Positions 2,241-5,855 of a stretch of 64,000 bases of DNA are shown here, in pieces. The notes under the pieces are model-generated. The model worked only from the letters and a program-made list of their open reading frames with translations. It did not search any database and had not been told where the DNA came from. The DNA lies in contig MEDT01000039.1 in assembly GCA_001724175.1 (NCBI GenBank), positions 28,007-92,006 on the forward strand, in the 5' to 3' direction. This DNA is from Cytophagaceae bacterium SCN 52-12. GTDB lineage: Bacteria > Bacteroidota > Bacteroidia > Cytophagales > Spirosomataceae. Position numbers and translations under genes: made by a program. Position 1 is the first letter of the stretch, and every line of letters begins with the position of its first letter.

Positions 2241-2941
2241 TGAGCAATTCCTTAGTTACAAGCCTTCTGGTATTTTCGCTTCTTGCCATGATAGCGTCGG
2301 GATTTTCACTCAAAAGCCAGTTTGAGGCAATCGACCGTAATGATCCGTACTACGCATTTGAAAAAACACAGCTTGAAAAATTTAACCACGTCAGAGTCCG
2401 CGGCAATTATCATGGATTTACGCTCGTGCAGGAAGGAGCGCACCCGGAGCTATTCGTCTACCCGATGGCAAACGAAGACGGCAGCTCTGTCGTCACCTGG
2501 CGGCTCGATCGCGATACACTGGTTGTCAGCTTCCGTAAGGACGGTCGCCGGGCCCGGTATTTTTCAGGGATCTTTACAGGCGCTCCTAATGTTGTAATAA
2601 AGACGCCTTCGTTAGCAGGCTTTGTTTCAGAAGAGATCCCTGCAACTATCCAGGGATTTAAAACCGATTCCTTCAGTTTAAAGCAACAAGGATTTGGCGT
2701 GCTTTTAAAAGAGAATGATTTTCAGAGCCTTACAGCAGATATACATAAAGGAGGCGAATTAAGTGTTCAATGGAAAAACTCGTTCGGCAATACCGATATT
2801 ACGATTAGAGATTCCAGTGCTTTCAGAGCCGATCGCAACATTTTCAAAGTGCTCCGCTTACACGCCGATAGCTCAGCCCGGCTGGATCTGCCGGGAAGCC
2901 TGTTGGATATGCTTCAGCTCAAACCTGTCTACCTGCCGTAA
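2234..2941 (+). CDS. secreted/exported protein, possibly GIN/DUF2807-like beta-helix
   Basis: N-terminal signal-like hydrophobic stretch (MYLSNSLVTSLLVFSLLAMIASG); FNHVRVRGNYHGFTLVQEG resembles GIN-domain starts. ATG 2234 preferred over the track's GTG 2219. Confidence 0.55.
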   Translation: MYLSNSLVTSLLVFSLLAMIASGFSLKSQFEAIDRNDPYYAFEKTQLEKFNHVRVRGNYHGFTLVQEGAHPELFVYPMANEDGSSVVTWRLDRDTLVVSFRKDGRRARYFSGIFTGAPNVVIKTPSLAGFVSEEIPATIQGFKTDSFSLKQQGFGVLLKENDFQSLTADIHKGGELSVQWKNSFGNTDITIRDSSAFRADRNIFKVLRLHADSSARLDLPGSLLDMLQLKPVYLP

Positions 2942-4299
2942 CTGACATACAGCCATGCCCCGGCCGTATAGAGGTTTACTTTTCCGAATCCCACTTTCCG
3001 GGTAGGAATCTTAACGAAAGGTTCGACCCCGATCCGCAGACGGCTGGTCAGTTTTCTCTCATATCCCAGCGAAACCTGGGCATGGCTCAGCCAGTACCAG
3101 CCCGTAGATCCTTCCCAGCGATAGCGGCGGATCTGCGGGTCGGGGCGTTCATAGTTATACTCATATTTTTCACGCTGCATCTGGTAATTGGTAATTCCCG
3201 CCGTGACATACCATGCAGCGTTTGACTTTTTGCCCCACATGTATTTCAGGTTGAGCGGTATCTCGACCATGTTGCAGGTTGCGTCTATGCTTTCCGGCAG
3301 AACGGGCTGGGTCCAGTATGCCGGCCAGGTATAATCGCCGTTAAGCGCGGTGTATTTTTTGCTGCTCCTGACATACCCGGTCTGGATCCAGAAATGATCC
3401 AGTATCTGGTAATCGATATGGGCTGCCAGGCCCGGGACCGGCGCGGCAAAATCGGGCACTTTAACCGCGCTGAAATCGGGGCCTGCCGCTAAGCGCACCG
3501 CCCACCGGCGCTGGTTTTTCAGGGCAGCAGGTATTTCTGCCTCGTGTCCGGCTTCAACCGGCTTTATCTCTAAAACCGGCTCAGACAGCAAAGACAGCCT
3601 GGGAGATAGTGGGTCAAGCCAGGCAAGAGGAGGTGCGGAGAACCGGTCCGGAGTCCTGGCATCCAGGCTTTCCGCTTCGTCATCCGAATTTTCCATCCTG
3701 TCCGTGACGGCGCTGCCCGATGGCAGGCGATCGACCTGCGCCACGGTAGGCGGTTGTTCGGTACCGGGCAGAAAATAGGTCCCGTCAGCCCTGTTTGTAT
3801 CTCTCATGGCAGGTTTAACAGGCTCTCCGCCAGCCTTATTATCCTGACGGGACCGTCTCTTTGGTGAGCCCGGGGCCGGGCCGGGCGGCGCAGAAAGCCG
3901 GGTTTGTTCTGCCGGTGAAACCCGGGCTACGCCCTCCGACGGAACTGCAGGGGCGGCAGGTTTTAGCTTATCTGCCGGTATTTTCTGCGTTCCGACCGGG
4001 GTCTGAGATTGCGGAAAAGAGGCCTGAGGCTGTGAAAAATAAGATTCCTTCTTTCTGAAGAGAGATTCTTTCTCCCTGGAGACCGTCAGATACAGGAGAA
4101 CGCACAGCGACAGAATTGCGCCTGCCGTGATAAGCCACCCTTTCCGGAGCAGCTTTTGCCACCAGAACACCTTCTTCCCGTCCGCCTGATCCAGGCGGTC
4201 CCGGAGCTTTTCCCAGTTACGGGATTCAAAAGCTGGATTCTGTTCTTCAGACAACTTTCTGAAGAATGCATCCAGTTTATCATCTGGCCATTCTTGCAT
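2929..4299 (-). CDS. putative membrane-spanning anti-sigma protein with C-terminal outer-membrane beta-barrel-like domain (Dma-like candidate)
   Basis: N-terminal about 50 aa cytosolic segment, one TM (GWLITAGAILSLCVLLYLTV), about 200 aa Pro/Ser/Ala-rich linker, C-terminal alternating aromatic strands (YVTAGITNYQMQREK, VSLGYERKLTSRLRIGVEPFVKI). Directly follows and overlaps the sigma gene. Confidence 0.7.
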   Translation of the reverse strand: MQEWPDDKLDAFFRKLSEEQNPAFESRNWEKLRDRLDQADGKKVFWWQKLLRKGWLITAGAILSLCVLLYLTVSREKESLFRKKESYFSQPQASFPQSQTPVGTQKIPADKLKPAAPAVPSEGVARVSPAEQTRLSAPPGPAPGSPKRRSRQDNKAGGEPVKPAMRDTNRADGTYFLPGTEQPPTVAQVDRLPSGSAVTDRMENSDDEAESLDARTPDRFSAPPLAWLDPLSPRLSLLSEPVLEIKPVEAGHEAEIPAALKNQRRWAVRLAAGPDFSAVKVPDFAAPVPGLAAHIDYQILDHFWIQTGYVRSSKKYTALNGDYTWPAYWTQPVLPESIDATCNMVEIPLNLKYMWGKKSNAAWYVTAGITNYQMQREKYEYNYERPDPQIRRYRWEGSTGWYWLSHAQVSLGYERKLTSRLRIGVEPFVKIPTRKVGFGKVNLYTAGAWLYVSYGR

Positions 4300-4846
4300 A
4301 GTCGTCTGCGCTTAATCTTGATAACATTATTCTCAACTTTTCCCGGGCTCTGGAGAGGTTTGATTTGGAGGTGCCGATACTGATCTGCAGCTTTTCTGCA
4401 ATTTCCTCATGGCTGTACCCGTCGATAACTGCCATGCTGAAGACGATTCGATAAACCGGTGACAGCCTGCCGATCAACCCTACAATATCGTGATACGACA
4501 ATTCCGTCAGCGCGGTTTCCTCGACAGGAGCATCCCTGTCTTCTACAGCCTCAAGCTCGAACCGGTGCGAGTGGCGCCTGTAGTGGTCCAAAGCGGTATT
4601 GACCATAATTCTGCATAGCCAGGTTTTGAACGGACGGTCCGGATCATAAGTCCCGATCTTGGTAAAGACTTTGAAGAAACCGTCGTTCAGGACTTCAGCA
4701 GCTTCGTTTCTGTTCTGAACATAGCGTAAACATACAGACATGGCATACCCGTAGAACATCTTGTAAAGACGCTCCTGGCTACGGCGGTTTTTTTGCAAAC
4801 AGCCCTCCAGCAATTCAGACAATACGGCGGAGTTGTATGCTGACAT
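4280..4846 (-). CDS. RNA polymerase sigma factor, ECF/sigma-70 family
   Basis: FKTWLCRIMVNTALDHYRR (region 2) and YRIVFSMAVIDGYSHEEIAEKLQISIGTSKSNLSRAREKLR (region 4). Confidence 0.92.
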   Translation of the reverse strand: MSAYNSAVLSELLEGCLQKNRRSQERLYKMFYGYAMSVCLRYVQNRNEAAEVLNDGFFKVFTKIGTYDPDRPFKTWLCRIMVNTALDHYRRHSHRFELEAVEDRDAPVEETALTELSYHDIVGLIGRLSPVYRIVFSMAVIDGYSHEEIAEKLQISIGTSKSNLSRAREKLRIMLSRLSADDYARMAR

Positions 4847-4929: not shown

Positions 4930-5763
4930 TTACATGGGGGCCTCCTGCATTTCTTTTTGTGCAACAGGCCATCTTCCGGCGACAGGGACACTCACACCTT
5001 TGGTAGATCCTCTGGTTTCGCCATCGGCGCCGAAATAATAAAGCGGCCACCCTTTATAGGTAAGCTGCTTACGGCTATATACATCGATTATCTTAAAAAG
5101 ATTTTTATCCAGCGAGGAAGGAATCTCATCGGCTTCCACCGTATAGATCGGCCAGGTGCCGTCGTTGGAAAAATCTTCTCTTGTAAAATTGTTCTTTTCC
5201 TTGCGGTCATTCTGGAATGTGTAAAGCGTGCGGCCCTCCCCATCCACAAAATACTGCGTTTCGCCGGTACCTTCGGTGTAGTCGCTTTTGTAGGATTTCC
5301 CGTCGTTGCCTACCAGCTGGCCGGCGGCAACCATCAGGGTATAGCCAGGTTTGGCGACAAACCAGATGTTGTTGACATTTTCACCTTTCACCTCTCCGGG
5401 GGCTTCGTCATTATTAAAATAGTAAAGCGGCCATCCCTTATAAGTGGTCTGCTTTGTTCCGTCATCACGTGTTATCGTGGTAAAATCTGAGGCATCAAGT
5501 CCATCGCCGGGCAGAAGCGTGCCTTTCTTTAGGAAGACCGGCCAGTTGTTGAGACATCCGCCTGTACACTTCGAATCTCCGCTCACATCCCGGGCAAAGA
5601 AATACAGGGTCATTCCGTCCTTGTCGGCAAGCACTTTTCCGAGCGCGGTATCAAAAAGTCTGATGTCGGGCTGAACCTCCGGTTCTTCGTCACGACATCC
5701 GGCCAGGAGAAGCACAAAAGCGGCAGCTCCCGTAAAAAGCTTTAAGTGTGGTTTGATTTTCAT
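4930..5763 (-). CDS. lipoprotein with COG4315/PF03640-type secreted repeats
   Basis: Repeats such as DGMTLYFFARDVSGDSKCTGGCLNNWPVF and TYKGWPLYYFNNDEAPGEVKGENVNNIWFV; lipobox LLLAGC after MKIKPHLKLF (ATG at 5763). Confidence 0.85.
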   Translation of the reverse strand: MKIKPHLKLFTGAAAFVLLLAGCRDEEPEVQPDIRLFDTALGKVLADKDGMTLYFFARDVSGDSKCTGGCLNNWPVFLKKGTLLPGDGLDASDFTTITRDDGTKQTTYKGWPLYYFNNDEAPGEVKGENVNNIWFVAKPGYTLMVAAGQLVGNDGKSYKSDYTEGTGETQYFVDGEGRTLYTFQNDRKEKNNFTREDFSNDGTWPIYTVEADEIPSSLDKNLFKIIDVYSRKQLTYKGWPLYYFGADGETRGSTKGVSVPVAGRWPVAQKEMQEAPM

Positions 5764-5855
5764 AACAAGCCAGGTTAAAAACGACCATTTATACCGCTGA
5801 TACGTTGAATGGTATGTCCGGGTTGCCTGGACGAGAGAATTAATTCGCATAAACC

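Follow-up and report, generated by a model that had tools for sequence, protein, structure and literature searches.

Dual membrane-spanning anti-σ (Dma) factors are described as partners of σ factors of group ECF21 and as confined to Bacteroidota, where their deletion derepresses the σ factor and raises vesiculation. The described examples are the Dma1/Das1 and Dma2/Das2 (BT_1558/BT_1559) anti-σ and σ partners of Bacteroides thetaiotaomicron (PMC13088901). A comparable arrangement, in which the σ gene is followed by that of a large anti-σ factor predicted to span the periplasm and to carry an outer-membrane barrel, has been reported for M0N98_03760/03761 from Phocaeicola vulgatus and for EcfO and its partner from B. 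fragilis (PMC9308784). The pair considered here is encoded in a window of 64,000 nucleotides, the whole stretch of DNA that was analysed, from the genome of Cytophagaceae bacterium SCN 52-12, which is 79% complete. Computation shows the two ORFs and their overlap, the succession of head, transmembrane (TM) helix, tether and barrel in one polypeptide, the co-conservation of the pair and the presence of one motif before two operons. The explanation that we favour for the whole, with a probability of about 0.8, is a single-chain sensor that spans both membranes and controls a regulon through GCAAC-N17-CGTA promoters. The features of the locus are collected in Table 1.

Table 1. Features of the σ/anti-σ locus, in positions of the window.
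Feature	Position	Strand	Details
Dma-type anti-σ factor (predicted)	2929..4299	-	456 aa; ATG inside the σ gene; 20-nt overlap
8-stranded outer-membrane β-barrel (predicted), residues 266-455	2935..3504	-	AlphaFold2 pLDDT ~97
Codon of near-invariant Cys342, barrel strand 4	3274..3276	-	most conserved position by relative entropy
Disordered P/S/A-rich periplasmic tether, residues 86-260	3520..4044	-	AlphaFold2 pLDDT below 60; ~175 aa
Long helix, residues 43-84 (AlphaFold2)	4048..4173	-	contains the TM segment, about residues 55-74
Head, residues 1-40	4180..4299	-	two short helices, AlphaFold2 6-19 and 26-38; presumed σ-binding
ECF σ factor	4280..4846	-	188 aa; Pfam Sigma70_r2 E 9.8e-16, Sigma70_r4_2 E 1.1e-16
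Lipoprotein_15 (COG4315-type) repeat lipoprotein	4930..5763	-	277 aa; Pfam E 4.5e-43; gene 1 of the predicted operon
Candidate ECF promoter GCAAC-N17-CGTA (GCAACCCGGACATACCATTCAACGTA)	5801..5826	-	38 nt ahead of the lipoprotein's likely start (5763)

The coordinates given for the σ gene and for its 20-nt overlap with the 456-aa ORF in an earlier, sequence-only reading of the window are exact, and Pfam finds both Sigma70_r2 and Sigma70_r4_2 in the σ factor, for which NCBIfam returns general ECF matches only. Orthologues with 43-65% identity are present in 80 named loci, from Dyadobacter, Spirosoma, Larkinella, Runella, Pontibacter, Hymenobacter, Mucilaginibacter, Pedobacter, Chitinophaga, Saprospiraceae and others, and a comparison with 84,980 species gave, as the best 80 relatives, records from Bacteroidota, with the exception of one MAG labelled Thalassobius (L142). 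In 78 of the 80 loci the downstream ORF could be scored, and in 76 of these 78 named Bacteroidota loci it is a member of the anti-σ family, lying directly 3' of the σ gene; in the remaining two (L123 and L144) there is instead a FecR-like partner, followed by a TonB-receptor-like gene. Together with the presence of anti-σ homologues in 32 of 59 relatives, this indicates that the pairing is not due to chance. The start and stop of the two genes overlap in 72 of 85 pairs, and in the distant loci of the class that were sampled an anti-σ match again lies behind a related σ gene (40/40).

The same genome encodes a second pair of a σ factor and a barrel anti-σ factor, on contig C57 (L326:957-2982; 494 aa, with an OMP_b-brl_2 match), and, on contig C165 (L327:1183-2591), a third σ pair whose anti-σ-like partner has 289 aa. 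The NCBIfam model NF052375 ('antisigma') was rejected, as it is generic and also matches FecR-sized ORFs and five non-Bacteroidota control genomes. A frameshift was likewise rejected for the split anti-σ gene of Persicitalea (L039/L075), which looks like an assembly gap, with an X at the junction.

From the perspective of its architecture, the 456-aa protein conforms to the short N-terminus, single TM helix and long P/S/A-rich stretch that had been read from the sequence, since an AlphaFold2 model built on a 59-sequence alignment, together with hydropathy, places helices within residues 6-38, the TM segment at about 55-74 (hydropathy maximum at residue 56) and disorder at 86-260. The head, which is presumed to bind the cognate σ factor, conserves D10, F13, W29 and L36 across homologues, and an HMM of residues 1-40 retrieves, at E<=0.01, 82 of 3025 ORFs, all of them beside a σ gene and none elsewhere. 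The linker of the window protein consists of 41% P/S/A/T, including 15% Pro, and varies between homologues, with a family median of 197 aa; the very short values of L046, L107, L111 and L142 are artefacts of the domain calls. Homologues also have in common a TM segment near residue 55 and a conserved block at the C-terminus.

The AlphaFold check of the C-terminal domain, for which the sequence-only reading expected a barrel of 8-10 strands, gives 8 strands with a pLDDT of ~97. Foldseek against the PDB places OmpA first, followed by Pla/OmpT, Ail, NspA, OmpX and OmpW; these are outer-membrane barrels, and the soluble fold that would have spoken against the earlier reading does not appear. A sequence-profile search of the PDB with the anti-σ alignment returned only spurious matches to the TM helix plus linker. 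In Pfam, the window protein matches OMP_b-brl_2 weakly (E 0.0029, under the gathering score), and 44 of the 59 family members match this domain at E 0.01 or better, the best at 2.7e-10. The C-terminal domain is therefore predicted, from the model and its structural matches, to sit in the outer membrane as an OmpA/OmpX-like barrel, and the assignment of the whole protein to the Dma type finds support in its architecture and in the barrel model. Cys342 is conserved in over 90% of the family, and the barrel also contains conserved Tyr, Lys and Glu residues. Conservation does not differ significantly between the extracellular and the other half of the barrel (p 0.33), and no extracellular bias is claimed.

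The C-terminal part is not the same in all relatives of the head. One set of divergent partners that share this head (A5) comprises 33 proteins, of which 16 match a barrel family and 3 match CHU_C; in a second set (A6; 22 proteins, E<=0.05), the CHU_C type IX secretion domain is matched by 12 and TIGR04131 by 11, mostly with PKD, and at least 6 match a barrel family. When the profile of the window family is compared with that of the second set, only the head and the TM segment align (probability 98%); the head of the window protein is thus homologous, by profile comparison, to those of distant Bacteroidia partners. As far as these sequence comparisons indicate, the head and the σ factor are the constant part of the system and the outer-membrane part is exchanged.

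Examples of proteins with the same head, TM helix and σ neighbour that end in PKD plus CHU_C/TIGR04131 are L192:2785-4059(+), L198:3055-4176(+) and many of L306-L325, all from Bacteroidia. Such anti-σ factors are apparently inner-membrane-anchored substrates of the type IX secretion system (T9SS) of an undescribed kind; a literature search for an anti-σ factor with a T9SS sorting domain returned nothing relevant, which is weak evidence of absence. In the same σ clade, L123:3161-4024(+) from Xanthovirga aplysinae, in which Pfam confirms FecR, and L144:3770-4645(+) are the FecR-type partners mentioned above, and the TonB-receptor-like gene that follows them encodes 900-920 aa. These two loci represent a partner swap next to Dma-type pairs.

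The genes that adjoin the window pair encode the repeat lipoprotein, a GIN-like exported protein and a helix-turn-helix (HTH) protein. The anti-σ protein has no Pfam match to a FecR domain and no TonB-dependent receptor gene adjoins the pair, as the sequence-only reading had stated. The mechanically called lipoprotein ORF (4930-5850, -) is 29 codons too long, its likely true start being Met30 (5763), from which a lipoprotein-type signal, ...VLLLAGC, can be read. In 13 loci (the window, Spirosoma, Larkinella and others), the σ gene is directly preceded, on its own strand, by a Lipoprotein_15 gene; in Hymenobacter such a gene lies 3' of the anti-σ gene, and in Pedobacter it is divergent. In most Spirosomataceae relatives, the anti-σ gene is followed 3' by genes for a Rieske lipoprotein, a DUF5777 barrel or a four-helix protein, and a YceI protein, and in other relatives by a c-type cytochrome or a CHRD lipoprotein. 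We read the four-helix alternative to DUF5777, which has no Pfam match, as cytochrome-b561-like. The window pair has no Rieske, DUF5777 or YceI gene 3' of it; the three are found together elsewhere in its own genome, at C254:23315-25274 (L179). The HTH protein (1801-2115, -) is of the HipB/HigA-like XRE type and has no toxin-sized partner in about 100 nt upstream, so it is possibly a solitary antitoxin.

The motif GCAAC-N17-CGTA, which was first spotted by reading the upstream regions of the pair loci, falls in the window inside the over-called part of the lipoprotein ORF. Across 112 loci, it occurs upstream of the operon at 46 sites with a spacer of 17, compared with 0, 1, 5, 3, 0 and 0 sites at control spacers of 14, 15, 16, 18, 19 and 20, respectively. 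A further 34 sites with a spacer of 17 in these loci include many that lie just after over-called σ starts or that head a downstream operon. Only 44 of the 112 loci have the spacer-17 motif, which may mean that distant members rely on a different promoter or that the ORF starts are misplaced. Since the motif was derived from the same 112 loci, its real test lies in the spacer control and in unlinked genes. The source genome contains 42 GCAAC-N17-CGTA sites, versus 17 for the reversed control, and 11 sites of the strict form GCAACC-N16-CGTA, only two of which are both intergenic and in sense: one before the lipoprotein operon and one (C254:23196-23221) before the Rieske-DUF5777-YceI operon. The other nine strict sites fall within predicted ORFs and were excluded from the regulon, as were the looser, unsupported GCAAC-N17-CGTA sites that precede other genes (C52, C161 and C200). 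In relatives, the motif is again found before the operon and also before unlinked Lipoprotein_15 genes (L267 and L297) and a CHRD lipoprotein gene (L263), whose domain assignments rest on sequence resemblance. That the motif has stayed with genes no longer next to one another represents the best evidence for regulon membership; the Rieske-DUF5777-YceI operon, which usually lies 3' of the anti-σ gene in relatives, is on another contig in the window's own genome and has kept the motif.

From these sites, GCAAC-N17-CGTA is a candidate autoregulatory promoter of the lipoprotein-σ-anti-σ operon, and the conserved predicted regulon would comprise this operon, the Rieske-DUF5777-YceI genes and the CHRD lipoprotein, a small exported set of redox type. 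The sequence-only reading had proposed as possible targets the lipoprotein, a suggestion strengthened by its place as the first gene of the predicted operon behind the conserved motif, and the GIN-like protein, a suggestion that is not supported. The gene of the latter (2219-2941, +), a protein without a Pfam match, is convergent with the anti-σ gene, whose 3' end it overlaps by 13 nt, has no motif and lies beside the pair in this genome only, and was rejected as a regulon member. In our judgement, the Rieske-DUF5777-YceI operon is a better second target.

According to the favoured explanation, the head (residues 1-40) would hold the σ factor at the inner membrane, while the barrel would sit in the outer membrane and the tether would bridge the periplasm, as suggested by the architecture and by the Dma precedent (PMC13088901; PMC9308784). 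A cue at the outer membrane, be it a ligand, redox damage or failed assembly, would travel via the tether, by pulling or by proteolysis, and free the σ factor. The freed σ factor would then read GCAAC-N17-CGTA promoters and induce itself, its inhibitor, the lipoprotein and the exported redox-type module.

Regarding the nature of the cue, one account, credible at somewhat less than even odds, makes the protein a redox or ligand sensor at the cell surface, in which the site around Cys342 would bind or react with a specific cue and the regulon would be the matching exported electron-transfer module. A regulon of Rieske, YceI and b- and c-type cytochrome-like proteins is consistent with this, as are the position of Cys342 as the most conserved residue and the case of EcfO from B. 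fragilis, which is cited in PMC12596196 as an oxidative-stress σ factor. However, the upper and lower halves of the barrel are similarly conserved overall (p 0.33), no heme or metal motif was found, and the functions of the regulon genes are putative. Given that the regulon is of redox type and the cysteine conserved, it would be reasonable to test an oxidative or redox cue first. A rather doubtful alternative is that the barrel acts as a decoy that monitors assembly: upon failed insertion into the outer membrane it would remain unfolded in the periplasm and the protein would be cut, freeing the σ factor by the logic of RseA/DegS within one protein. In the same σ clade, the C-terminal part of the partner is either a barrel or a type IX secretion sorting domain, the two main routes to the outer membrane for Bacteroidota proteins, and the pair of P. 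vulgatus reacts to a toxin that is believed to provoke envelope stress (PMC9308784); both observations fit this account. Against it, the near-invariant cysteine and the conserved Tyr, Lys and Glu of the barrel suggest a specific site, and the predicted regulon has Rieske, YceI and repeat lipoproteins rather than chaperones or insertion factors. We put forward only tentatively, as a broader idea, that the anti-σ factors of this σ clade are moored to the outer membrane through either export route (barrel or T9SS domain), depending on which is available, and would so report the state of the outer membrane or of export rather than one ligand, the mooring controlling in Spirosomataceae a small, conserved, exported redox-type regulon via GCAAC-N17-CGTA. 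Finally, although σ binding by the 456-aa protein remains a prediction, it is very improbable that this is an unrelated outer-membrane protein merely overlapping the σ gene, with the true anti-σ factor elsewhere or absent, given its co-occurrence with the σ gene in 76 of 78 scorable loci, a head conserved independently of the C-terminal module, a cytosolic head and TM helix unlike the layout of ordinary outer-membrane proteins, and the precedent of Dma1 and Dma2 (PMC13088901).

This kind of anti-σ factor is already known; the present member, its regulon and its promoter are new as far as the searched literature shows. The predicted single-chain sensor extends the two-membrane anti-σ design, so far studied in gut Bacteroidales, to Cytophagales, Sphingobacteriales, Chitinophagales and Saprospirales, which would make it a general scheme of envelope sensing in the phylum Bacteroidota. 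The system also offers a candidate promoter sequence, a compact regulon that can be assayed and a near-invariant cysteine for mutagenesis, and the natural variants (barrel, T9SS domain and FecR) separate the σ-binding part from the sensing part.

Compared with known systems, FecR-type pairs with TonB-dependent receptors likewise combine an ECF σ factor with a TM anti-σ factor, and are the type to which the partners in L123 and L144 belong, but a FecR domain is absent from the window protein, whose gene is not followed by one for a receptor. The 8-stranded barrels of OmpA, OmpX, Ail and NspA share the fold of its C-terminal domain, with a sequence identity of only 6-14%, and are free-standing outer-membrane proteins, unlike the window protein. 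In the P. vulgatus and EcfO systems, the σ gene is induced with its own regulon, as is predicted for the window pair; that regulon includes glycosyltransferase (O-antigen) and NigD-like genes, and the cue is envelope stress or oxidants (PMC9308784). The regulons of Dma1 and Dma2 involve NigD1 or PULs, whereas that predicted for the window pair consists of Lipoprotein_15 and Rieske-DUF5777-YceI, and the gene order in the window is σ and then anti-σ, behind the lipoprotein. By architecture, rather than by direct sequence comparison, the window protein is like Dma1 and Dma2 in its N-terminal head, single TM helix, long disordered tether and C-terminal barrel, and in adjoining an ECF σ gene in a member of the Bacteroidota.
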